DNA from: a virus
Direction: 5' to 3' (one strand)
Virus record (IMG/VR): IMGVR_UViG_3300027851_000100
Location: 1 to 28,890 of that record
DNA: 28,890 nt
The notes under the pieces were generated by a model. The model saw only the letters and a program-made list of their open reading frames with translations, did not search any database and was not told the DNA's origin. The translations under genes and the position numbers were made by a program. Each line of letters starts with the position of its first letter. Position 1 is the first letter of the stretch. Below are positions 5,179 to 26,100 of this stretch, one piece after another.

Positions 5179-8100
5179 ATGGCAAAGAAAGGCGATACGG
5201 ATCTCGACAACATCGACTTGGATGATTTTGATTTTGACGTCCCTGAATGGAATGACAATGATCCAGTTGATGACAAGTCGAGATCTCCCGTTCAGAGGAT
5301 CACCTCTGGTGCCCTCATGGGGGCCAAAGATGAAATCGTCAGTGTCTCCGGCGTACGCAAAGCTTTGTCGATGGCATTACCGTCGGGCTATGGCCTGGCT
5401 GCAGACACGATTGAGAACGTCGCTTCTGATGCACGATCACTATACGATAAGGTCGCTTCTGAGCAAGGAGACTTGATCAGAGGTAGTAAAGGCTTTGGTC
5501 GTAAAGCGATGCAATCGGTGGGTAATCGTGTCCTGCCGAAGAAGCTGGCCGATCGGCTCAACAGCGCACTTGAAGACCACGATGAATATCGTGCCAAGTC
5601 CGCTGACCAGATTCGCCGAGAGCAAGAAGAAAGCGATATCGCTGCCCTCACCGAGATCTTCCGTGCTCGGGGTCTGGCGGATGAGACTCGTGCCCAGAAA
5701 GACGATGTGGATAAACTTGAAGCTAAGGCACTAGAACAAGCCCGTTTCAAGTCTAACATCCAGGCACTGACCTCTATCAACCGTAGCATGGCCCGTCTGG
5801 TCGGCTACCAGGATAAGGTCACTGCACGTTATCAGCAGAAGATGCTTGAGCTGACGTATCGTCAGTATGCATCGACTCGGCAGCTGACGGAAATTATGTC
5901 CGAGAGCATGGCGAAACACAGTCAGATTCTCGAGAAGATTCGTCACAACACCGCTCTCCCTGAAGCAGTGAAGATCCGGGGCAGTGAGATGTTTGGTCAG
6001 CTGGCCAGACAGCGTCTCATGGGGGCTGGACTTAACACCGTCAGTAACTTTACCGCCAACTACGGTAAACAGGTATTGGACAACGTCTCGGGTATGGTTC
6101 AAGGTATTCTGAACCCTATCAGCGAAGCCCAGGCCATGGCTGGTGGCATGGATGGCATCGATAAACATGAGATGGGAGGTCGTCTTCTGGGGTCGACAAT
6201 CGGGTCGACTGTTCGGGATTATGCGTCTTTGCATTTGTCCCCACTTCTCCAGAAGAACAAAGCCATCGCCAAGGGTGGCGAAAAGCTTCGTGGCATGTTC
6301 ACAGGTCTTCCACAGCGTGTGAATGAATACGCTAAGTCTGAGACTAAGGATAAGTCGACATGGCGAGGTGTAGCCACACAGATGTTCAAGGACTTCCTTC
6401 CGAAGTTCCAGATGGAGACCGGTACCGGGATCACATCACCGGATCGTCTTGACGAGATGGCGACCTTTGACAAGCTATCGCGTCGGTCTCTGATTGAGAT
6501 CATTCCAGGTTACCTGTCGGAGATCGCCCACTGGACCCGTATCGCTGTAACTGGTGATAAGGACAGCGAAAAGCAAGTCTTTAACGTGGTGCGTGGCGGG
6601 TTCACTTCCGAGAAAGACCATCTGAAAGATGTTAGTCGCCAGATCATCAGTCGATCTGAGCGTGAGTCATTGAGAGGGGCCGCCGATAACTTCATGAAAG
6701 AAATCGGTGGAGATACCATGTCTGGACGCGCACAACGTGTCCTTAAACAGAAGATCCTGGAAGAAATTGCCAACGGCAATGACTTGGTTCCAGCTCGCCT
6801 TGCACAACGAACCAGCTACCCTGGTGAATCTGACGACGTCATTGATGAGATTGTAGCACTGATTCAAGATACCTTCAATATCGACGAAGATGGAAAACCG
6901 ATCAGTTCGTCCACCGAGGGCGACGCTCGTTTTAACGACATCCGTGATAAGTTCCTGAACATGACCAGCATGGTACCTGCCATGGGGGATCGCGTACGCG
7001 TCCTTAGTGACGTGTTTGGAATGGATGTGATGCGCAAGTTGGGTTATGTTGAACGCAATAAGGATAGTCGCCAGGATAACATCAACCCAAACAAGTTCTG
7101 GAGTACCATTTTCGATGATGACAACGATGAAGGTAAGGGAGGAGCTTCGAAAGGTGGGTCGAATGCTTCTGATCACACTCCTCGGGGTGGGGATAATAAT
7201 CAAGGGACTACTGACTACCGTAATACTGGCTCCGATCGTGCTCGTCGAACTGACGATATGGTTTCTAACCGGCGCAAAGGAAATCAAACAGGCCAGGGAC
7301 TCGAGCAATTCCTAGGCGATAAGAGCACCCTGATCACCATCCTGCGTGAATCCCGTGATTTCCATGCTCAGACAGTCGAACTCCTTAAAGAGATGGGTTA
7401 TCCGACTGGAAGTACCGGAGAACGTGTTAAAGTTGACTGGTCCAAATACAAGGGTAGTCTGTCCGAAACTGCTCGTAAATATGCAGGTAAAGGAAAAGAC
7501 ACGTACAAGAAAGCAAAAGCCCACGCTCAAGATCTTTGGATTATGGGCATGGATCATCCTACCCTCCAGGAATGGAAGCTGAAGGCTGGTCACTATAAGG
7601 ATGAAGCAACTGGGAAGACCATCAAGGTCTGGGATGATATTCAGAGTAACGTCACCGATACCAGGGGTAAGGTGGTGGCGTATTACGAAGATATCATGAG
7701 CAACGGGGTCATTGCCGACAACACCGGTAAGATCAAAGCTTCCTTTGCTGAGAAGTACGCCAAGTTCAAAACCAGTAGTGCCGGACAGTACACGTCTGGC
7801 ATGATCAACGACGTGAAGAGCCGCGCCAAGGCGCTTGATACGGATATCCGTCTTCACGGTGGTGCTTCTGCCTACGCCTCGAAAAAGGCCTCTGACCTTG
7901 TCGACAAGACTAAATCCGAGGGTCGTAAGTTTAAGCCACGTCTCAAGCGTCTCATGAAGTTCTTCACCGGCGGTAAGGCAGGGGATGACATCACCTCCGA
8001 ACTGACTGGTAATCATGAAGAAGACATGCTGACACTGGCTATCCGTAGCACCCAGCTTCAGTATCAGACGCTTAAGGAAGTGACAGTCGAGAAAGTCCGG

Positions 8101-11100
8101 AAGGGTTCCTACCTCGATATGTTCGCACGCCGTAAAGAACTGATGAACGATGCCAAGGAAAAAGCCAAAGGGAAATACGATCAAGTCGCAGGTCTCTTTG
8201 GTAAAGGCGGTGCTCTTGCTGGGTTGGCTAGTCTACTGGGCAGGAATGGCGCAGACGGAGAAGATGGCGAAAGCAGCGGCGGGATCATGGATTCGATTGG
8301 CGACTTCTTCGGAGGAGGTGGCGATGAGGGTGATCGCAAGAGTCGTAAAGACAAGCGTCGAGCCAAGCGCAAAGGTAAGTTGGGTAAACTGACTAACTGG
8401 GGCGGACGACAGCTCGATAAGCTGGGTAGGTTTGGTAAAGCTGTGAAGTTGGGCGGTAAGGGTGTTGGCCTACTGGGTCGTGCTGCCTGGGGCGGGACTA
8501 AACTGGCATGGAAACTGGGCAGAGGAACGCTTGGTCTGGCCGGTCGAGTTCTGTCTAATCCGGTCACCAGGATGGTGGCAGGTACGGCGGGAAGGATGGC
8601 GATCGGTGCTCTTGTCGGCGCTGCTGGTCTGGTCAGTGCACCCGTACTACTTGTAGGTGGAGCTGTTCTGACAGTCGCGGCTGGTGCTGCCCTCATCTAC
8701 AACCTGTCCCGTGATGAGCTTCCACCATTGTCTCGTGTCAGGATGGCGCAGTATGGTATTAAGCCTCGGCCCGATACCGATAACTACAAACGCATCATGC
8801 AGCTCGAGAAGCTCTTCCAAGATATCACCGCTGTCGACTCGGATGGGAAAGCTACGGTGAATATCAAATCTTTGGACATGCCCAAAGTTGGAGAGATCTT
8901 TAACATCAACATGGACGCCCCGTGGGAAGAGAACGGACTCCTACAATCCACGATCAAGTACATCGAGACTCGTTTCTCTCCAGTGTTTACCACCCATCTA
9001 TCGAACTATCATGCCCTGACCAAGAATTCAGACCTCAGTCAGATCGACTCTAAGCTTACCGGTGATGTGGCTCTCGGGTTCCTGGACAAGGTCGCAATGA
9101 AAGATCGGTCCGATATGTTCAACATGATGGCTGGTCCGTTCGAGGATGATCTCGAAATGGATGCCGGTGATGTAGAAGACACTGTAGATGATGCTCGTAA
9201 GCTGATCAAGGAAGCGGCTGAGAAGGAAAAGAATAAGGGTAAGTCTGCAGCTGAAGTTCATGCTGATAAGACACGTGCCTCTATTGAGGCTGGTGCTGCC
9301 GCTGCGATTGGCGCTAGTGCCGTGGGTGCTGTTGTGTCCAGTAGTGCTAAACAGACGGAACGAGACGCCAGTGGTAAGAACTACACGGGTGGCGGTAAGG
9401 GATCTACAACAGCAGTCGCCGAAAACCTCCAGAAGTCTTCTGCCGCGATGGGCGGTACCGGTGTGGCAGCTGCCGCAGCGGCGATGGCTGGAACGTACGC
9501 TGCTACCATGAAGGATCGTGATACTGGTCTGGACGATGGCAAGCCTGTTCGTTATCGTATTTACGGTTTGATGGACATGGCTGAAATCAAGGTAGGGCAT
9601 CTGAGTCATCTGGAAGCGATTTGTTTCCCTATGGTGACGTACGATGCGGCTGGTCAAGCTACCTTGAAAGATACCAATGCGGCGTACACGGCAGCAGAGA
9701 AGATCTTCGCACCCATCGGTAAGGATATCGATGCGTTCTACGTGTGGTTCCATCGTCGTTTTACTCCGGTGTTCTTGGCGTACTGTACTGAAGTGCGTGC
9801 TAGGGCAAATATCGACGCTGCGGAAGCAGCCGTTCGACTGAAACCCAATGAGCTTCTTGAAGTCCTGCGAGCGATTGTCAACACGAAAGACGCTGCGGGT
9901 ATTTCGGTTTGGGACATCGGTGAGTCGCCATGGAGCGGCTACTTCATGAACGATAACCAAAACACGGTTAAAGACGCCCTCTACGCGCTATCTCTGAAGG
10001 TCAAGGATAAAACCCTGACTGAACCCTCGGGTCAGAGTAAAGGACGTGTACGTGGTAAGGACGGCGAGTTCATTGAGGAAGACCCTACTCAGAAAACGAA
10101 ACCTGAGTCTGCTACCAACCCGTCAGCTAACGCAACAGCGGGTAGTGGTAACGGCGAGCCGAGTAATAAGGAAGAGAGTGGTGGACTATGGGGTAAAGTC
10201 AAGGGGTGGTTCAGTAGTGACAGTAAGGCAGCGCAGCAGGGGGCAACCTCGGTTAATGGTCAATCTGTCAATACCTCAACTGCTACTGGCGCTACTGCGT
10301 TCCCGGCTGCCGCTCCTGTCAACCACCCAGGTGGCGGCACAGGTGGTAACATCAATGACATCCCTCAACCGAAAGGAGATGGATGGGAAAATAACCGCGA
10401 TACCATCATTGCTGCGGCAAACATGGTTGGTGTGGATCCTGCATTGGCGTCTAGTATTGCCGGTGTCGAATCTAACTACCGTCCAGCGGCAAGGCCGTGG
10501 TCTAAGAAGGAACAGCGGTACCTGTCATCAGCAGCTGGATATTACCAGGTGATTAACGGAACCTGGGATTACCTAATGGGTAAGTATGGTGCCAAATACG
10601 GTATCAATCCAAATACTACCCAGATGGATCCACGGGCTAATGCCCTGCTAGGGCTCGAGTATATCCGTGAGAACATTGACATCGTTGGAGAAGGTGCTAA
10701 CCGTGCCGTTACAGATACCGACGTTTATCTGGCTCACTTCCTCGGTCCAAGTGGCGCTAAGCGCTTCGTTAAAGCTCCTCCGGGAGATCCGGCAATCAGC
10801 CATGTGTCCAGCGACCAAGCCAATGCCAACAAAGCCATCTTCTACGACGGAAACGGAAGACCCCGCACCGTCGCAGCCGTTTACGAAGACTTCAATAACA
10901 AATTGAAGAAACATCGTAAATCAGATGCGCAACAAATTGCTGCCACGCTGAAGGGTGGTGGTAGTACGATCGAACCGACAGCTGAGACCGCCAGTGGTGA
11001 CACGGTAGTGGCCGATACGACTACGACTGAAACTCCGTCGATGGTCAAACCGGCTAGCGATACCCCAACCGTAAGCACCGCTAGTGCAAATACTGTGGCA

Positions 11101-11469
11101 GATGCAACTGCGCCTGCGTCGACTGAGAATGTCGCGGAGAAAGCAGAAGAGCGTCAAGTACAGAACACTGCCGCTCCGATGGCAGTGTCAGCGCGTACAG
11201 CGGATACTCAGAGTTCGGCACAGACCAAAGCCACAACAGAAACCTTCGGGGGACTGGACAAAGGCGTAGGTCGTCTGATCAGTGTGAACGAGTCCCAGCT
11301 TGAACAGCTGGTGACCATGGTCGGGTTGTTGAAAGCAGGTGTTATGGAAATGCCGAACGCGGATGCTGTCACTAAAGACATGCAAGCTAACGCCGCTAAA
11401 GCGTTTACCCCATCTACCAGCGCTCCACGCCCGGCCGCCAAGAGCACTGTCTCGGTAGGTCGCGTGTAA
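5179..11469 (+). CDS. Giant virion tail protein with embedded lytic transglycosylase (phiKZ gp181-like)
   Basis: This 2096-residue protein carries a goose-lysozyme/SLT-type transglycosylase domain at about residues 1736-1868. The motif ALASSIAGVESNY contains the probable catalytic Glu1764 and is followed by AAGYYQVINGTW and ALLGLEYI, the usual SLT blocks. Its N terminus is acidic (DLDNIDLDDFDFD). Residues about 60-600 look mostly helical. About 1015-1180 is rich in glycine and lysine and ends in a strongly hydrophobic stretch near 1141-1177 that could span a membrane. The tail after 1890 is rich in Thr, Ala and Ser. In phiKZ the 2237-residue gp181 is a structural peptidoglycan hydrolase encoded beside the virion polymerase genes, so size, domain and position all agree. 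The likely role is local cell-wall opening during DNA injection; a channel or tape-measure role is possible. The start has TGGAG 7 bases upstream. Confidence 0.88.
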   Translation: MAKKGDTDLDNIDLDDFDFDVPEWNDNDPVDDKSRSPVQRITSGALMGAKDEIVSVSGVRKALSMALPSGYGLAADTIENVASDARSLYDKVASEQGDLIRGSKGFGRKAMQSVGNRVLPKKLADRLNSALEDHDEYRAKSADQIRREQEESDIAALTEIFRARGLADETRAQKDDVDKLEAKALEQARFKSNIQALTSINRSMARLVGYQDKVTARYQQKMLELTYRQYASTRQLTEIMSESMAKHSQILEKIRHNTALPEAVKIRGSEMFGQLARQRLMGAGLNTVSNFTANYGKQVLDNVSGMVQGILNPISEAQAMAGGMDGIDKHEMGGRLLGSTIGSTVRDYASLHLSPLLQKNKAIAKGGEKLRGMFTGLPQRVNEYAKSETKDKSTWRGVATQMFKDFLPKFQMETGTGITSPDRLDEMATFDKLSRRSLIEIIPGYLSEIAHWTRIAVTGDKDSEKQVFNVVRGGFTSEKDHLKDVSRQIISRSERESLRGAADNFMKEIGGDTMSGRAQRVLKQKILEEIANGNDLVPARLAQRTSYPGESDDVIDEIVALIQDTFNIDEDGKPISSSTEGDARFNDIRDKFLNMTSMVPAMGDRVRVLSDVFGMDVMRKLGYVERNKDSRQDNINPNKFWSTIFDDDNDEGKGGASKGGSNASDHTPRGGDNNQGTTDYRNTGSDRARRTDDMVSNRRKGNQTGQGLEQFLGDKSTLITILRESRDFHAQTVELLKEMGYPTGSTGERVKVDWSKYKGSLSETARKYAGKGKDTYKKAKAHAQDLWIMGMDHPTLQEWKLKAGHYKDEATGKTIKVWDDIQSNVTDTRGKVVAYYEDIMSNGVIADNTGKIKASFAEKYAKFKTSSAGQYTSGMINDVKSRAKALDTDIRLHGGASAYASKKASDLVDKTKSEGRKFKPRLKRLMKFFTGGKAGDDITSELTGNHEEDMLTLAIRSTQLQYQTLKEVTVEKVRKGSYLDMFARRKELMNDAKEKAKGKYDQVAGLFGKGGALAGLASLLGRNGADGEDGESSGGIMDSIGDFFGGGGDEGDRKSRKDKRRAKRKGKLGKLTNWGGRQLDKLGRFGKAVKLGGKGVGLLGRAAWGGTKLAWKLGRGTLGLAGRVLSNPVTRMVAGTAGRMAIGALVGAAGLVSAPVLLVGGAVLTVAAGAALIYNLSRDELPPLSRVRMAQYGIKPRPDTDNYKRIMQLEKLFQDITAVDSDGKATVNIKSLDMPKVGEIFNINMDAPWEENGLLQSTIKYIETRFSPVFTTHLSNYHALTKNSDLSQIDSKLTGDVALGFLDKVAMKDRSDMFNMMAGPFEDDLEMDAGDVEDTVDDARKLIKEAAEKEKNKGKSAAEVHADKTRASIEAGAAAAIGASAVGAVVSSSAKQTERDASGKNYTGGGKGSTTAVAENLQKSSAAMGGTGVAAAAAAMAGTYAATMKDRDTGLDDGKPVRYRIYGLMDMAEIKVGHLSHLEAICFPMVTYDAAGQATLKDTNAAYTAAEKIFAPIGKDIDAFYVWFHRRFTPVFLAYCTEVRARANIDAAEAAVRLKPNELLEVLRAIVNTKDAAGISVWDIGESPWSGYFMNDNQNTVKDALYALSLKVKDKTLTEPSGQSKGRVRGKDGEFIEEDPTQKTKPESATNPSANATAGSGNGEPSNKEESGGLWGKVKGWFSSDSKAAQQGATSVNGQSVNTSTATGATAFPAAAPVNHPGGGTGGNINDIPQPKGDGWENNRDTIIAAANMVGVDPALASSIAGVESNYRPAARPWSKKEQRYLSSAAGYYQVINGTWDYLMGKYGAKYGINPNTTQMDPRANALLGLEYIRENIDIVGEGANRAVTDTDVYLAHFLGPSGAKRFVKAPPGDPAISHVSSDQANANKAIFYDGNGRPRTVAAVYEDFNNKLKKHRKSDAQQIAATLKGGGSTIEPTAETASGDTVVADTTTTETPSMVKPASDTPTVSTASANTVADATAPASTENVAEKAEERQVQNTAAPMAVSARTADTQSSAQTKATTETFGGLDKGVGRLISVNESQLEQLVTMVGLLKAGVMEMPNADAVTKDMQANAAKAFTPSTSAPRPAAKSTVSVGRV

Positions 11470-14717: not shown

Positions 14718-15308
14718 TCATTCGGCGTCGTTAGCCTGACGGGCCATCATACCTTCCGGGTTGTTCAGATGGAACTCGATCTCGTCATTGAGTTCTTTCC
14801 GGATGGTGGTCAGTGTACCGACGTTCACCAGCGCAGTGCGCAGGAGTTGCCAGTAATCCAACTGCCATTGATGATGGTTCAGGGTATGGATCCGCTCGCC
14901 GTACACGTAGTAGTGTGCCAGCGGTAGGTCGTTGCTCTTCAGCTGCTCTTGTAGCGTCGGATTACGATCCAGTTTTTCCAACATGCCCAACTTGAACATC
15001 TTGTTGAACAGTGGGTAATGCTTGCTCGGCATGACCTTGCCTTTCTCGCGCGCTTTCATCCCTTTGAGGATACGGAACTCGTCGTCGAGGAAGTTGGTCT
15101 TCATGTAGTACCACAGTCCTTCCAGTGTACGGAAGTGACCGAAGTACGGGTGTTCGATATTGCACTCACTGAGGTTGCTCAGCTGGCGTCCCAGGACGGT
15201 GGCTCCGCGCGTATAGACGTTGATGTGCGTGACGCCATCGTCATTCACGGAGTACTCGATCTTCGCAGGAGTCTCTGTCGACATGGTGTTTTCCATTAGT
15301 TGTGCCAT
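14718..15308 (-). CDS. NADAR/YbiA-like protein (possible ADP-ribose or N-glycoside hydrolase fold)
   Basis: The central part follows the layout of E. coli YbiA and other NADAR proteins. LSNLSECNI resembles the FSNF strand, FRTLEGLWYYMKTNF resembles the WPTSEHYFQAQKF helix, and FRILKGMKAREKGKVM resembles the IRRVSSP-to-GR region. MLEKLDRNPTLQEQL resembles MREALRAKFEQHAELRALL, and there is a late DYW. NADAR enzymes remove ADP-ribose from DNA guanine, and some are antitoxins or phage counters to DarT1-type defence; whether this protein does so is inference. The match is by eye and divergent, and the N-terminal 30 or so residues are outside the domain. The start is uncertain: ATG at 15308 (used here, 7 bases after the upstream stop), 15296 or 15284, while a longer frame to 15353 would overlap the upstream gene. 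A strong terminator follows. Confidence 0.5.
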   Translation of the reverse strand: MAQLMENTMSTETPAKIEYSVNDDGVTHINVYTRGATVLGRQLSNLSECNIEHPYFGHFRTLEGLWYYMKTNFLDDEFRILKGMKAREKGKVMPSKHYPLFNKMFKLGMLEKLDRNPTLQEQLKSNDLPLAHYYVYGERIHTLNHHQWQLDYWQLLRTALVNVGTLTTIRKELNDEIEFHLNNPEGMMARQANDAE

Positions 15309-15315
15309 ATGGGTA

Positions 15316-15915
15316 TCAATCGTCGAAATCGATTTCAAAGCGAGGTCGCTCATCTACTTCCTCCACTCGTTCATCGTCGAATGATTCGAAGTCATCATCC
15401 TCTTCAGGGAGGACAATCTCATTCATCCTGGCATTTAGTTTTCTATGCGTCACGAAATCGGTGTCGTCGGCATCGTCAGCGTCATAGTTAGTGATATCGC
15501 TGGAGGAGTTCATCCCGCCAGCAACAGCGATTTGCAGAGAGTCCATGTCCGAGTAGGGGTTTTTCCCCATAGGCGTTTCGACGGTAATTAACGACCCGTC
15601 CTTCAATTCCATGGTGATACTCATAGAATAGCGTTTAGGGCCGATGATTTGCACGGCTTTCTGAAACGTTTTCCATGTGACATCACGCTTGGCAATTGCT
15701 CGGTTGAAGTTATTACGCTCCTGACCGATATCTTTAGCCGTTTTACGGACACGCGACAAAGGACTCTTCAAGAAGAGAGTGAGGCGGGTGTTCCACTTCT
15801 CTGGCCCGATCTCCATCTTTCCAAGAAGAAGTCTGAACAGACGCGTCAATGGAGTTTGTGACTCCTCGACGAGCTTGTCCCTCGCATTCATCATGCGGAC
15901 TTGTTCTTTGCTCAT
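15316..15915 (-). CDS. Hypothetical protein with acidic C-terminal tail
   Basis: This 199-residue protein matches no family I recognise. The N-terminal two thirds are basic and mixed helix/strand, including an IIGPKRYSMSITMELKDGSLI stretch around residues 90-110 that reads like paired strands. The last 60 residues are strongly acidic, with DADDADDTD and PEEDDDFESFDDERVEE. Acidic tails of this kind occur on DNA-mimic and single-strand-binding partner proteins, but nothing else supports such a role here. AGGT lies 8 bases before the ATG. It is the middle gene of the 16410-13653 leftward unit and its stop codon lies 7 bases before the chosen start of the NADAR-like gene. Confidence 0.78.
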   Translation of the reverse strand: MSKEQVRMMNARDKLVEESQTPLTRLFRLLLGKMEIGPEKWNTRLTLFLKSPLSRVRKTAKDIGQERNNFNRAIAKRDVTWKTFQKAVQIIGPKRYSMSITMELKDGSLITVETPMGKNPYSDMDSLQIAVAGGMNSSSDITNYDADDADDTDFVTHRKLNARMNEIVLPEEDDDFESFDDERVEEVDERPRFEIDFDD

Positions 15916-21857: not shown

Positions 21858-22241
21858 TCAGACGGTTTGCTCGTGATGCTGGTAAGACTGACGAAGTACT
21901 TGCTCGACGTCTCGGAGCATAGTCTCACGGTCCAGATACCGTAACCATCTTGGTATCCTGCCGTACACATACTCCACCGCTTGCTTGTACTCTCTACGCT
22001 CACAGGCCTCTACCACCTTATCCACCATTCTATCTTTCCACAGCATTTTGGCGGCCATCGCTGGCAACGTTAATGACCGTGGGTCGTTGACCAGGTAGAA
22101 CAGGCGATTGAATTCTGCCAGGAGAGACTCGTCAGGGTCGTAGTTACGGATCAGACGGAAGTACAGGCTCGCTACAAACAGTGTTCGCTTGCAGGTTTGC
22201 CAGAAACCGTGAGATTGGTTTATCGCAACAGATCGGTACAT
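21858..22241 (-). CDS. Hypothetical basic protein, 127 residues
   Basis: No family is recognised. The sequence is rich in arginine, tyrosine and helical segments (VDKVVEACERREYKQAVEYVYG, about residues 73-94) and has no membrane segment or signal peptide. It is the last gene of the leftward unit 24651-21858. Its ATG lies 14 bases after the RNase H stop, and an AAAGGG overlaps that gap as a somewhat distant ribosome site. Its position behind RNase H could mean a nucleic-acid role, but the sequence itself shows none. Confidence 0.75.
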   Translation of the reverse strand: MYRSVAINQSHGFWQTCKRTLFVASLYFRLIRNYDPDESLLAEFNRLFYLVNDPRSLTLPAMAAKMLWKDRMVDKVVEACERREYKQAVEYVYGRIPRWLRYLDRETMLRDVEQVLRQSYQHHEQTV

Positions 22242-22255
22242 AAACCGAGCCCTTT

Positions 22256-23758
22256 TTATTTCACGAGTTTGAAGTTGCCGAACGGATTAGTCCAAAGACC
22301 TATATCGTCATCAGTCTCAATTACAGTAGCGTAACGGAAGACCGAATCAGATTCACGCCAGGTCAGGACTTCCACTCGCTTAACAACATCAGCGAGTGCC
22401 GACAGCGCATTTCGACCAATGATGTCTGAGCCCATGATCAGCCTGACTTTCGTCTTACTGAATGGTACTACAGTCATCGCCCTGAGTTCACGAGCTACAG
22501 CGGTATTGAAGTTAACGCTTACGTCGAGGTGTTTCACCGTGTTGGTGATTTCCTTACGAAGTTTGCGAGTCACTTTCCCCTTCTTCTCGATCGACTCATA
22601 GAGTAGGTCTGTCAGGTCGGTGGAAATGATGGACTTATCCCCATCGAGATACTGTTTCAGAATGGTCGTCATGGCAGAGAGGTTATCTACGTTGTAAAAG
22701 TAGAGACCTGTCGGGGTCGCATGATGAATCAACTGAGCACGTTTGTCCGTCTGAAGGCTATGGTTAGCTTTGTTGCCTTTGAAGACACCCAAGCCAAACC
22801 GAATGATGTCTTCGGTGACCGCTGCATTGGTCAGCGTACGCATGGCGCCGATGTACAGATGGCCTACCTGGATATCATCCTTCTTCACGAAATGATCACG
22901 GACTCTCTCGAGAACATCGATTGGTTCTTTTAAGAATAAAACCGCGTTACTGCTGTCGGATTGGGGCTTGGCTACGTCTTCGTCGTCGCCGTGCTGTCCT
23001 GTCCAGTAGATGTGGCGGCCATCCTTGTCGAACTGTCGGTCGGTCTTGTCAGAACTGAAATACCACTTAGGTTGATCAAGCATGCGATTGTAGTTCACAG
23101 TGCTCTTCCAGTACCCTTCGGGCTGCTCTTCGAATTTATAGGTAACCGAGAGGTCGTTCAAGCCAATGCAATTGCCTTTACTGGCCCATTGGTCAGCCTT
23201 CTCGTTTCCGATATGGCCGTTGTGCCCCTTGATCCACGTCAGTGTTACCTGGTTGTTGGCGTCACGGAGACGACTCAGCAATGAATCGACTGCCTCCCAA
23301 TCCTTACGATTGGAAATCTCGTCGCCATCGCGGTTACGCCAGCCGGTTTGTTTCCAGCGATCAAGATACTGATTGATACCATTGACCACGTACTTCGAAT
23401 CGGAATAAATAAGCGTATGACTCAGACCTTTATCGAGAGCATAAGTCAATGCTTCTTTGGCCGCCAATAGTTCGGTATGGTTATTGCTTCCGGCACCCGG
23501 TACACCACCAAAACTATCGACGTAGTTCTTGATCACAACCGCTTTGGTTTCATCTTTACTGTCAGAATAACCATTAACGGTCGGAGTAGAACCCGGTACA
23601 CCACTGCCTTTGTTACTTTCCGGTGAGGCTTCTGGAGAGAACACGTATCCGTGCAAACCCCATCCACCAGCACGTTCTGTGCTGTAAAAGCCTCCGTCAG
23701 CATACAAGACCCCGTTGTAGCTGACTGATACGGTGTTATCCTTCAACTCAGACATCAT
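22256..23758 (-). CDS. RNase HI-type ribonuclease with large C-terminal domain
   Basis: Residues about 12-195 form an RNase HI domain that cleaves the RNA strand of RNA:DNA hybrids. The acidic residues are Asp21 (YADGG), Glu96 (NNHTELLAA), Asp120 (IYSDSKYV) and Asp189 (NEKADQWA), with His179 in KGHNGHIGN; all catalytic positions are present. Between Asp21 and Glu96 there is a long polar insert (about residues 41-90) absent from E. coli RNase HI. The remaining 300 residues match no domain I know and include ITNTVKHLDVSVNFNTA and a KVRLIMGSDIIGRNA segment. phiKZ gp155 is a known RNase H-like protein. It likely removes primers or R-loops. The ATG at 23758 overlaps the upstream TGA; the second ATG at 23755 has better spacing to AAGG. 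Confidence 0.9.
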   Translation of the reverse strand: MMSELKDNTVSVSYNGVLYADGGFYSTERAGGWGLHGYVFSPEASPESNKGSGVPGSTPTVNGYSDSKDETKAVVIKNYVDSFGGVPGAGSNNHTELLAAKEALTYALDKGLSHTLIYSDSKYVVNGINQYLDRWKQTGWRNRDGDEISNRKDWEAVDSLLSRLRDANNQVTLTWIKGHNGHIGNEKADQWASKGNCIGLNDLSVTYKFEEQPEGYWKSTVNYNRMLDQPKWYFSSDKTDRQFDKDGRHIYWTGQHGDDEDVAKPQSDSSNAVLFLKEPIDVLERVRDHFVKKDDIQVGHLYIGAMRTLTNAAVTEDIIRFGLGVFKGNKANHSLQTDKRAQLIHHATPTGLYFYNVDNLSAMTTILKQYLDGDKSIISTDLTDLLYESIEKKGKVTRKLRKEITNTVKHLDVSVNFNTAVARELRAMTVVPFSKTKVRLIMGSDIIGRNALSALADVVKRVEVLTWRESDSVFRYATVIETDDDIGLWTNPFGNFKLVK

Positions 23759-24177
23759 TGTACCTTATTAGAAAACAATACATCTCCCATTCCCATGGGA
23801 TATGTAGAGTCCATTTTGAAAAACTCATTGACCAGTTTCTGGCACTTGGAGTTGTACTGAAGGATATCTTCGTTCACGTACGTCTCTTCGTTGTGAATGT
23901 ATGTCTTGAGTTTCTCGGCGTAGGTAAGAAGGACATCATTGACTTCGTCGGGGGCGAGCTGAGTGATGTCCACCCTTGGGAATATTGGCTTATTGTGTCC
24001 TAGACGGATCTGTCGCTTGAATTCACCACAGTCATCAGATGTCTGCGCTGCAGATAGCGAATAGAAGTTATTCGACCTGCTATCGATGTTCTGCACAACC
24101 GTGCACGATCCTAGAGCGACACCAATCCACATAACGGCGAAGAAACGACTCCCTGTTAGTATTCCTGGTTTTTTCAT
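23755..24177 (-). CDS. Lipoprotein, candidate outer-membrane spanin (Rz1-like)
   Basis: This 140-residue protein begins with a typical lipoprotein signal: basic MKKPGILTGSR, a hydrophobic FFAVMWIGVA, then the lipobox LGSC with the lipidated Cys at about residue 25. The +2 residue is Thr, not Asp, so outer-membrane sorting is expected. The mature part has a helical stretch (about 70-115, PDEVNDVLLTYAEKLKTYIH). It lies 9 bases downstream of a gene with one membrane segment and a periplasmic coiled-coil-like part, the arrangement of separated Rz/Rz1 spanin pairs that fuse the two membranes at lysis. It is larger than lambda Rz1 and not proline-rich, so the role is inferred from topology and order. 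Its TGA overlaps the RNase H start. Confidence 0.65.
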   Translation of the reverse strand: MKKPGILTGSRFFAVMWIGVALGSCTVVQNIDSRSNNFYSLSAAQTSDDCGEFKRQIRLGHNKPIFPRVDITQLAPDEVNDVLLTYAEKLKTYIHNEETYVNEDILQYNSKCQKLVNEFFKMDSTYPMGMGDVLFSNKVQ

Positions 24178-24186
24178 GATATAGAC

Positions 24187-24651
24187 CTATTCGCTAAGTC
24201 TTCTCCAGCGTTCAACCATATCGCTGGACGGTGGTCGATTAGAAACCGGCGGATTCTCAGGTTTCTGGCGAGGTGCTGGAAGTGGTTTTGGCTGAACTGG
24301 TTTAGTACTAGCCCTTTCTTCCTTAACGTTTTGTTGCCCGGTTCCGGCCTTAAGGTCGTAATACTTCTCTTTGTACCAGGCAAGCTGATCGGTTAGATAT
24401 GGTACTTTTTCATCAATTTGTTGACGCAGATCAGTTTGTGATCGAGTCAGGTCTTCAATGGTCTTCTCCTGATCTTTAACAATCAGGATCACATGGAAGA
24501 ACAACGCAGCCATCACCACAAAGCCTGTGCTTGTGAAGATTAAAGGCAGATTCTCATGTACAAACTGTCTGAACGTCCGATCGCGTAGCCACATCTCTCG
24601 GAGAAAGAGAGCCAGCGCTTTCAGCATCTTAAACAGCGTTACTGATCCCAT
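24187..24651 (-). CDS. Single-pass membrane protein, candidate inner-membrane spanin (Rz-like)
   Basis: This 154-residue protein has a basic 35-residue N terminus and one membrane segment (about 36-60, LPLIFTSTGFVVMAALFFHV). It then has a charged heptad-like helix (KDQEKTIEDLTRSQTDLRQQ to about residue 98) and a proline-rich tail (KPVQPKPLPAPRQKPENPP). N-in topology with a periplasmic coiled coil is the i-spanin plan, and the adjacent lipoprotein gene supports it. The N-terminal cytoplasmic part is longer than in lambda Rz, and the proline-rich region is in this partner rather than in the lipoprotein. The ATG at 24651 has GAGAAG close upstream; ATG at 24627 is an alternative. It is the first gene of the leftward unit. 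An unrelated membrane-associated virion factor is the main alternative. Confidence 0.6.
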   Translation of the reverse strand: MGSVTLFKMLKALALFLREMWLRDRTFRQFVHENLPLIFTSTGFVVMAALFFHVILIVKDQEKTIEDLTRSQTDLRQQIDEKVPYLTDQLAWYKEKYYDLKAGTGQQNVKEERASTKPVQPKPLPAPRQKPENPPVSNRPPSSDMVERWRRLSE

Positions 24652-24682
24652 GGCTTCTCGTGGCACCCTATTACCGGAATGG

Positions 24683-24686
24683 TATG
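24683..24686 (+). promoter_or_regulatory. Candidate late promoter core TATG
   Basis: TATG 61 bases before the ATG at 24748, within a divergent gap. The leader is longer than for the other TATG cores in the window, so the assignment is weaker. Confidence 0.3.
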
Positions 24687-24713
24687 GACGTTTCTTGTTA
24701 TTTTTAACATTGT

Positions 24714-24717
24714 CATA
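24714..24717 (-). promoter_or_regulatory. Candidate late promoter core TATG (minus strand)
   Basis: Minus-strand TATG 62 bases before the ATG at 24651. It is the only leftward unit in this window with a TATG in its leader, which would suit late expression if the unit carries lysis genes. Confidence 0.3.
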
Positions 24718-24747
24718 GTTTACGTGGCAATTACACCGGAGACAAAT

Positions 24748-26100
24748 ATGTATAAACTCAAGGCGTTTGGTCAGATTGCCGCGCTGATCGACAACACGCG
24801 TGCCGTAGTCGCTCCGGTGGGTGAACTCTCGCCCATGGCACTCACCTATTCGCGTGAAAAGGAATATTTGACGTCGGCAGCCACACCGGGACACTCCATG
24901 GTGGTGTTTTCGACTACTAAAGACAGCGAGGCCGTTCAAGCCGACCCTGTCCTGGTCGCAAAGCTCCTGCTCATCAATAAGTGGGCACTCGAACGAGCGA
25001 TGGCAGGTGCCTTCAACTCGTCCATCGAATCCTTCCGTACAGCATTCATTCAGCAATTCGGGTCTCAATATGCCATCTGGTCTGTAGGGACCATGGTGGA
25101 GGCTCAGTCGAATGTCTGGATGCCTGGTGTTATCCAGATTCGTGACATTGCCGACGACGAGATTCAATACACCATCTGGTACGCCACCGAACAGTTCGAG
25201 CAGCAGTTCGATGAATACCAGATCGAAGTTGTCGGCCCTACCGATGAACTCGATGTGTTTTTCATGGGCCGTGCAGCTGTCAAAGCAGCATTGGCAGAAC
25301 GTACCCCTGATGAAACCATAGCGTTGATCCAGGCTGCGAAAGAAGGGTATCCAGATACGTATCTCCAGAGTGAGATGTTCGAGTGGTTCGACCCGATTGA
25401 TCCGACCGATGTGGATCTTCGAATCGCTACCTACTGGTCTCTTGTGATCTACGGTATCGCTGGTCGTAACGTCGACTCTATCAAGGAAGCGATCCGTGAC
25501 CATATCCTGGAGAACAGCACCCATACCAAAGAGGAATGGGCTGCCATTTTCCCTGAGATCTTCACATCGACCGAGTTCATCTTTGTGCCGATGTGGAACG
25601 AGTACGCCATTCCTAACCGTACCCTTGAAGCAGGTATGTATTCTTCGTCCGTCAGCATTGTCAAGGCAGCTGCTGAACTGAAACGCCTGGTACGTGGTGA
25701 AGGATACACTGATGAGTTCATTGACCAGAATGCTGAATTGTTCGGTGCTGCCCATCGCGCTATCTCGGTAACTGTCACTGGCGGTCCTTACAACCGTGAC
25801 GGCATCGTCCAGTTCGGTCAGCGTTACGAAGACTACATCAACGTGGATTCCACGTCGGTGGACTTCGGACGCATGTCTCCGGAAACTCGTCGCTTCGTTC
25901 TGCGTCTGGCAGAGATGTTGGCAGTGGCGGAAGACATGACTCCAGATTCGGCAGTCCCTGTCGAGCTGACTCGTCTGGTCCGCGAGGGTGTATTGTACGT
26001 ATCTTGCACACTGGATCGTTTCCAGTTGATCGTTGCGTCGAAGTTCTCGGCCAATGACGAGAGTCTTCTCGAAGGTACTGGTGAGCCAGAACTGGCCTGA
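24748..26100 (+). CDS. Probable virion structural protein, 450 residues
   Basis: The ATG at 24748 (protein begins MYKLKAFGQIAALIDNTRAV) has GGAG 6 bases upstream and is preferred to in-frame codons further left, which would add a hydrophobic leader with no ribosome site. No catalytic motif is recognised. The sequence mixes strands and helices, with acidic character throughout (IDPTDVDLRIATYWS, then IRDHILENSTHTKEEWAAIF) and a C-terminal strand (GVLYVSCTLDRFQLIVAS). A structural role is inferred from the isolated late-type unit, good translation signals and codon quality; family unknown. It stands alone between leftward units and ends at a perfect bidirectional hairpin. Confidence 0.78.
   Translation: MYKLKAFGQIAALIDNTRAVVAPVGELSPMALTYSREKEYLTSAATPGHSMVVFSTTKDSEAVQADPVLVAKLLLINKWALERAMAGAFNSSIESFRTAFIQQFGSQYAIWSVGTMVEAQSNVWMPGVIQIRDIADDEIQYTIWYATEQFEQQFDEYQIEVVGPTDELDVFFMGRAAVKAALAERTPDETIALIQAAKEGYPDTYLQSEMFEWFDPIDPTDVDLRIATYWSLVIYGIAGRNVDSIKEAIRDHILENSTHTKEEWAAIFPEIFTSTEFIFVPMWNEYAIPNRTLEAGMYSSSVSIVKAAAELKRLVRGEGYTDEFIDQNAELFGAAHRAISVTVTGGPYNRDGIVQFGQRYEDYINVDSTSVDFGRMSPETRRFVLRLAEMLAVAEDMTPDSAVPVELTRLVREGVLYVSCTLDRFQLIVASKFSANDESLLEGTGEPELA

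Follow-up and report, generated by a model that had tools for sequence, protein, structure and literature searches.

A gene pair of the spanin plan beside the RNase H gene of a phiKZ-related giant phage: a candidate second envelope bridge

Does a gene for a one-pass membrane protein, followed by a gene for a lipoprotein, encode the lysis spanins of a giant phage, or another kind of link between the inner and outer membranes? The question is raised by IMG/VR record IMGVR_UViG_3300027851_000100, a 28,890-base genome fragment of a phiKZ-related giant phage (the window), in which such a pair lies directly upstream of an RNase H-like gene. A first-pass annotation, made from the letters of the sequence, had read it as a separated spanin pair. 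Our analysis indicates that the pair is probably a bridge of the spanin plan, and we hold that it is not the main lysis spanin of the phage. Relatives carry a distinct Rz/Rz1-type pair elsewhere, which would make the RNase H-linked pair a second bridge of that plan. Our tentative preference is that this second, separated, spanin-like inner–outer membrane bridge has a tether or docking job rather than that of the main outer-membrane disruptor.

Anatomy and conservation of the pair

Lipobox and transmembrane (TM) calls were made from motifs and hydropathy. The inner protein, which contains no cysteine, has a single TM segment at about residues 35–57, preceded by a cytoplasmic helix (about 2–34) and followed by a periplasmic helix reaching about residue 105, a Pro-rich linker (about 106–142) predicted to be disordered, and a conserved C-terminal helix (143–153). 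Its structural model (predicted local distance difference test, pLDDT, 76.7) contains helices at residues 2–23, 25–110 (long), and 143–153 (short), with a disordered stretch between the last two. Hydropathy and model together give the single N-terminal TM segment and helical periplasmic domain expected of an inner spanin. The lipoprotein gene follows the inner gene after a gap of 9 bases, and its product opens with basic residues and then a hydrophobic segment, and carries the lipobox LGSC at residues 22–25 with the lipid-bearing Cys25, Thr at +2, and two further cysteines, Cys50 and Cys112. The lipobox motif and the +2 rule are the basis on which outer-membrane sorting of a lipoprotein is predicted, and by motif this protein has both the lipoprotein signal and the sorting of an outer spanin. 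The first-pass annotation was exact on the coordinates, the one-pass protein, the gap, the lipobox, Thr at +2, and the site upstream of RNase H; its placing of the proline-rich part in the inner partner was likewise confirmed, with disorder predicted over about residues 106–136.

We examined 25 records at this site, defining the slot as the stretch between the RNase H gene, used as the anchor, and a divergent structural gene at the phiKZ gp157 position. A one-TM protein followed by a lipoprotein fills the slot in 16 records (the window, DT01, three IMG/VR records, LucasX, PA7, phiKZ, FLC6, FLC9, Noxifer, PhiPA3, HPP-Temi, 201phi2-1, Yong MS32, and EaH2), and a one-TM protein without a lipoprotein in the other nine (SNUABM_37, Ea35-70, Moabite, Proteus 10, PCH45, EaH1, FBKp24, EL, and OBP). 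With three extra loci added and PA7, identical to phiKZ, counted once with it, there are 18 distinct pairs, among them phiKZ gp156.1/gp156, PhiPA3 gp180/gp179, and 201phi2-1 gp242/gp241. In all 18 the genes are adjacent with the inner before the outer, and every locus with a slot lipoprotein also has the inner protein. All 18 lipoproteins carry a lipobox, none has Asp at +2, and each has exactly two extra cysteines, 57–64 residues apart. Through these two, each pair has at least one periplasmic cysteine, as do 507 of the 528 known spanin pairs counted in PMC6139136. These counts bear on the suggestion that the two are adjacent but functionally unrelated membrane genes whose products form no complex. 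The nine lone slots do imply that the inner type can stand alone, but the lipoprotein is never found without its partner, and leave-out profiles show no significant similarity between lone and paired proteins; we regard this suggestion as very improbable.

The closest isolate, Pseudomonas phage pPa_SNUABM_DT01 (DT01), has 76.7% DNA identity to the window over one gene, and its RNase H is 74.2% identical in protein sequence. Its pair keeps the order and is 43.6% and 51.9% identical to the window proteins over the aligned parts. The other window-group loci with the pair are L003, L004, L005, L159, L161, and L163 (L162 has the L161 sequence at the locus), giving eight distinct loci with the window, at 36–60% identity to it. 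A 6,105-base IMG/VR record, L002 (IMGVR_UViG_3300006033_000365), is identical to the window at 6105/6105 positions and adds no independent evidence. Between the close loci L159 and L161, the few changes in both genes favour synonymous sites, with nonsynonymous (dN) and synonymous (dS) values of 0.046 and 0.087 for the inner gene and 0.030 and 0.096 for the lipoprotein gene.

Profile comparisons relate the slot proteins across groups. A profile of 14 slot lipoproteins matched 13 of 22 records, all at the slot bar one weak extra match, and 201phi2-1, which was outside that profile, scored 4.8e-19 at the slot. With E-values computed for 500 sequences, a leave-out lipoprotein profile of the window and phiKZ groups reached LucasX (5.1e-11), FLC9 (1.8e-6), EaH2 (0.001), and FLC6 (0.0063). 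By sequence, the slot lipoproteins look like one family. The phiKZ-group inner profile matched the inner proteins of the window (5.6e-4), FLC6 (3.9e-9), and FLC9 (1.7e-8). Another inner-protein profile matches 22 of the 25 records, mostly by construction because those rows built it; its untrained matches are 201phi2-1, G003, G004, and G005, and it misses Yong MS32, EL, and OBP. The pairs of phiKZ, PhiPA3, and 201phi2-1 share slot and plan with the window and are profile-related to it, although the phiKZ-group inner protein is shorter (95–99 residues), with neither the Pro-rich linker nor the ERW-containing C-terminus. The lone one-TM proteins were tried as proven homologues and rejected: with a profile that drew on 17 inner proteins of pairs they scored between 0.11 and 4.9, and the best lone value was 0.012, for FBKp24 with the window-group profile. 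They are tied to the paired proteins by position and topology and, being without significant similarity in leave-out profiles, may be other proteins.

Neither window protein matched a Pfam or NCBIfam family above cut-off, nor a PHROG spanin family up to E = 1. A few distant slot members gave weak PHROG matches, to phrog_812 (0.0074; 1/14) and to phrog_214 and phrog_739 (2/20 each). Profile searches of solved structures gave best E-values of 0.069 and 0.055, which are chance-like, and a Foldseek comparison of the inner model with viral structures yielded nine matches at E-values no higher than 10, of which none reached 0.001. The phiKZ record calls gp156.1 and gp156 without function, and a literature search found no function given to them. 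The first-pass remark that spanins of giant phages often go unannotated is borne out here for function but not for the genes themselves, which are called in phiKZ.

Rz/Rz1-type pairs elsewhere in relatives

We then scanned 11 genomes, 2.90 Mb in all, for a TM gene followed by a neighbouring lipoprotein gene on the same strand: DT01, phiKZ, 201phi2-1, Ea35-70, EL, OBP, FLC6, EaH2, Yong MS32, and the near-full-length IMG/VR metagenomic relatives G001 and G002. LucasX stood outside this genome-wide scan, the criteria of which were loosened after stricter versions had missed pairs known from homology. The scan returned 21 pairs, comprising eight at the slot, nine overlapped Rz/Rz1-type pairs elsewhere (the canonical pairs), and four others (about 1.4 per Mb). 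Its presence at the slot thus exceeds what chance neighbours would give. EL, OBP, and Ea35-70 have the overlapped pair and no slot lipoprotein.

In phiKZ and 201phi2-1 the canonical pair lies immediately upstream of the endolysin gene, and phiKZ gp141 has an 8.6e-70 match to phrog_7584, the family named 'Rz-like spanin'. This family also matched 5 of 14 control genomes, so weak matches to it count little. A profile of five canonical lipoproteins matched 10 of the 25 records, all ten with a slot pair; five of these are the profile's own rows, and the independent matches are G003, PhiPA3, HPP-Temi, Noxifer, and FLC9, the last being weak (0.007) but adjoining a phrog_7584 match. Tables 3 and 4 of Kongari 2018 (PMC6139136) list phiKZ, 201phi2-1, EL, OBP, and Ea35-70 as overlapped singletons, in agreement with the canonical pairs and not with the slot pair; the phiKZ entry presumably denotes gp141/gp141.1.

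Several further observations concern these canonical loci. In DT01 (MW735835, 253650–257346) the neighbours of the pair match no known lysis family and no separate endolysin was recognised beside it; searches of DT01, G001, G002, and G003 gave no PG_binding_1 match. The 201phi2-1 canonical lipoprotein (NC_010821, 158260–158649, + strand) is unannotated in its record. In phiKZ (AF399011, 144848–145240, + strand), the start annotated for gp141.1, at 144953, is probably incorrect, since beginning the frame farther upstream at 144848 gives back a lipoprotein signal (LNGC). The canonical FLC6 lipoprotein scored 0.018 against the slot lipoprotein profile; the slot and canonical lipoprotein families may therefore be distantly related.

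These results divide the first-pass reading. Its i-spanin/o-spanin plan holds for anatomy, gene order, the helical periplasmic domain, and the two lipoprotein cysteines, but not as the phage's own spanin pair. It had counted on there being no convincing pair elsewhere in the genome, and this failed on the relatives: another Rz/Rz1-type pair or its lipoprotein occurs in DT01, G001, G002, phiKZ, 201phi2-1, PhiPA3, HPP-Temi, Noxifer, FLC9, and G003, and a pair in FLC6 and Yong MS32. Detection of both proteins in virions was also to count against it, and of this there was no sign: the 201phi2-1 record has no mass-spectrometry note for the slot genes gp241 and gp242, whereas it lists gp226, the inner protein of the canonical pair, as a virion protein with such a note. 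That the slot pair could be the sole spanin pair of the phage, as its anatomy and the EaH2 scan might suggest, is the least probable of the readings we weighed, given that another Rz/Rz1-type pair is present in each of the three near-full-length relatives that were scanned (DT01, G001, and G002), as is the lipoprotein of such a pair in G003.

Constraint, transcription, and the role of the bridge

The slot and canonical pairs occur in the same genomes and share the order of TM protein then lipoprotein, as in phiKZ gp141/gp141.1 and the 201phi2-1 gp226 pair, but the genes of those two canonical pairs overlap and adjoin the endolysin gene. They also differ in where constraint falls. Across DT01, G001, and G002, the slot inner protein has an identity of 0.72 in its 34-residue cytoplasmic part versus 0.40 in the periplasmic part, whereas the canonical inner protein, with a very short cytoplasmic segment of about 6 residues, shows the reverse (0.32 versus 0.53). 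In eight window-group inner proteins the values are 0.74 for the tail, 0.44 for the periplasmic helix, 0.29 for the Pro-rich linker, and 0.62 for the last 12 residues. The phiKZ group gives 0.65 for the cytoplasmic versus 0.29 for the periplasmic part, and two groups of lone proteins (Moabite, PCH45, EaH1, and FBKp24; Ea35-70 and SNUABM_37) give 0.55/0.23 and 0.57/0.41. Within the tail, REMWLRDRTFRQF is invariant in 7/7 aligned rows, and DT01, which was aligned separately, has a single difference. Spanin membrane anchors are regarded as localisation signals only (Kongari 2018, PMC6139136). Constraint on the periplasmic parts, as a spanin would lead one to expect, was not found; the cytoplasmic tail is the most conserved part in four groups, and selection has thus fallen mostly on the part deemed a mere anchor in spanins.

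The transcriptional setting is known from phiKZ. PHIKZ155, the homologue of the window RNase H gene, is reported to be co-transcribed with PHIKZ154, PHIKZ156, and PHIKZ156.1, to be highly expressed at 20 min in a ChmA-dependent manner, and to be essential to genome amplification in a way that does not depend on its nuclease activity (PMC12571901). From this co-transcription, the phiKZ pair would be made mid-infection, and by synteny the pair in the window would be timed as its phiKZ homologue.

The chief rival to the docking reading is an auxiliary lysis role, in which the slot pair is a second fusogenic spanin pair that acts at the end of infection, either redundantly with the canonical one or conditionally. 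We consider this quite possible, if doubtful. The full two-component anatomy, the inner-then-outer order, the conserved T4-type cysteine pattern, and the plan of helix, Pro-rich linker, and terminal helix all speak for it, and its best argument is that the separated T4 spanins, PseT.3/PseT.2, lie outside the lysis cassette, with no cysteine in the inner and two in the outer partner (PMC6139136). Like them, the slot genes do not overlap and lie outside the lysis cassette, and a one-TM inner protein without periplasmic cysteine accompanies a two-cysteine lipoprotein. Unlike them, the slot inner protein has a 34-residue tail as its most conserved part and carries the Pro-rich stretch, and relatives hold a second Rz/Rz1-type pair. 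Lambda Rz/Rz1 shares the plan of inner-membrane helix and outer-membrane lipoprotein, but its Pro-rich region is in the lipoprotein, its genes are embedded, and no common sequence was found. Against a second lysis spanin stand the canonical pair already present in relatives, the constraint in the cytoplasmic tail rather than the periplasmic part, transcription with a mid-infection gene essential for replication, and the lack of PHROG spanin matches for either window protein. We favour tether or docking over auxiliary lysis because constraint is inverted, because of the operon setting, and because a canonical pair is already present.

In the tether or docking reading, the slot lipoprotein would receive its lipid and end up in the outer membrane, and its two further cysteines may form disulfides. 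The C-terminal helix of the inner protein would meet the helical domain of the lipoprotein beyond the flexible Pro-rich linker; as modelled, such a linker with a small terminal binding helix would be compatible with a bridge. The complex would be produced mid-infection together with the gp155-like protein, and either its cytoplasmic tail would fix something at the envelope or the complex would tether the membranes during infection.

Several points weigh against this reading. In anatomy the pair does not differ from a genuine separated spanin, which makes a second lysis spanin fully possible, and tail conservation is no proof of a cytosolic partner. The canonical pair is known from relatives, and the window fragment does not show one of its own; in EaH2 the genome scan found only the slot pair and no overlapped pair. 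The lipoprotein model is weak (pLDDT 61.7), with a predicted helix at residues 76–125 besides the signal helix. As to kinship, the window-group inner profile fails on phiKZ gp156.1 (E = 3.0), the phiKZ-group lipoprotein profile matches the window (5.2e-5) and misses DT01 (1.9), and the Yong MS32 lipoprotein, missed by the leave-out profile (1.3), belongs by position and cysteine spacing only.

What the tail might hold can be framed more specifically. The inner protein could be a phage-made membrane anchor for the cytosolic infection machinery of nucleus-forming phages, its conserved cytoplasmic helix docking the PhuZ spindle pole, the inner-membrane site of capsid assembly, or a gp155-linked step of nucleus maturation, with the lipoprotein, present in some lineages only, fixing the anchor to the outer membrane. 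A 2020 review (PMC7950403) describes the phage factor that sets the polar position of PhuZ as still unknown and capsids as forming on the cell membrane. This specific version we consider unlikely. Superinfection exclusion or receptor shielding, with the lipoprotein blocking an outer-membrane step and the membrane protein blocking DNA entry, appears improbable. Mid-infection expression in phiKZ would suit it, and the distant Yong MS32 slot lipoprotein weakly matches the Cor exclusion family (0.011), but that match is 20 residues of signal peptide and nothing ties the pair to a receptor. Exclusion lipoproteins are, moreover, usually encoded singly.

Neighbouring genes and significance

The features of the window and the canonical pairs of relatives are collected in the table. 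The first 4 bases of the RNase H gene are also the last 4 of the lipoprotein gene, and a scan for sigma-70 promoters found none versus 4.4 expected by shuffling. Farther away, the window encodes a 2096-residue protein (5179–11469, + strand) in which Pfam recognises an SLT transglycosylase domain (1.3e-05), the matching DT01 gene being annotated as a gp181-like tail-associated endolysin. The DT01 gene matching 14718–15353 (- strand) is annotated with a NADAR domain, and the PHROG families here are of unknown function.

Table. Features at the slot in the window and overlapped Rz/Rz1-type pairs in relatives
Feature	Genome	Coordinates	Strand	Remarks
Inner-membrane protein (slot TM protein; phiKZ gp156.1 position)	window	24187..24651	-	154 residues
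Conserved cytoplasmic segment, residues 1–34 of inner protein	window	24550..24651	-	contains REMWLRDRTFRQF
Outer-membrane lipoprotein candidate (phiKZ gp156 position)	window	23755..24177	-	140 residues
LGSC lipobox codons, lipoprotein residues 22–25	window	24103..24114	-	
RNase H-like gene (phiKZ gp155 homologue)	window	22256..23758	-	directly downstream of pair
Next same-strand gene (phiKZ gp154 position)	window	21858..22241	-	function unassigned
Divergent virion structural gene (phiKZ gp157 position)	window	24679..26100	+	other boundary of slot
Overlapped Rz/Rz1-type pair	DT01	254741-255522		
Overlapped Rz/Rz1-type pair	G001	32476-31716		
Overlapped Rz/Rz1-type pair	G002	57922-58703		by homology; missed by scan
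Overlapped Rz/Rz1-type pair	phiKZ	144487-145240		
Overlapped Rz/Rz1-type pair	201phi2-1	157971-158649		
Overlapped Rz/Rz1-type pair	FLC6	92517-91682		
Overlapped Rz/Rz1-type pair	Yong MS32	41654-41033		

Taken together, these comparisons illustrate that a TM protein paired with a lipoprotein does not by itself identify a lysis spanin. In phiKZ, a model phage, two genes without assigned function share the transcription unit of the essential PHIKZ155. If the reading of a second bridge with a docking tail is true, the pair would be a concrete candidate for linking the interior of nucleus-forming phages to the cell envelope.

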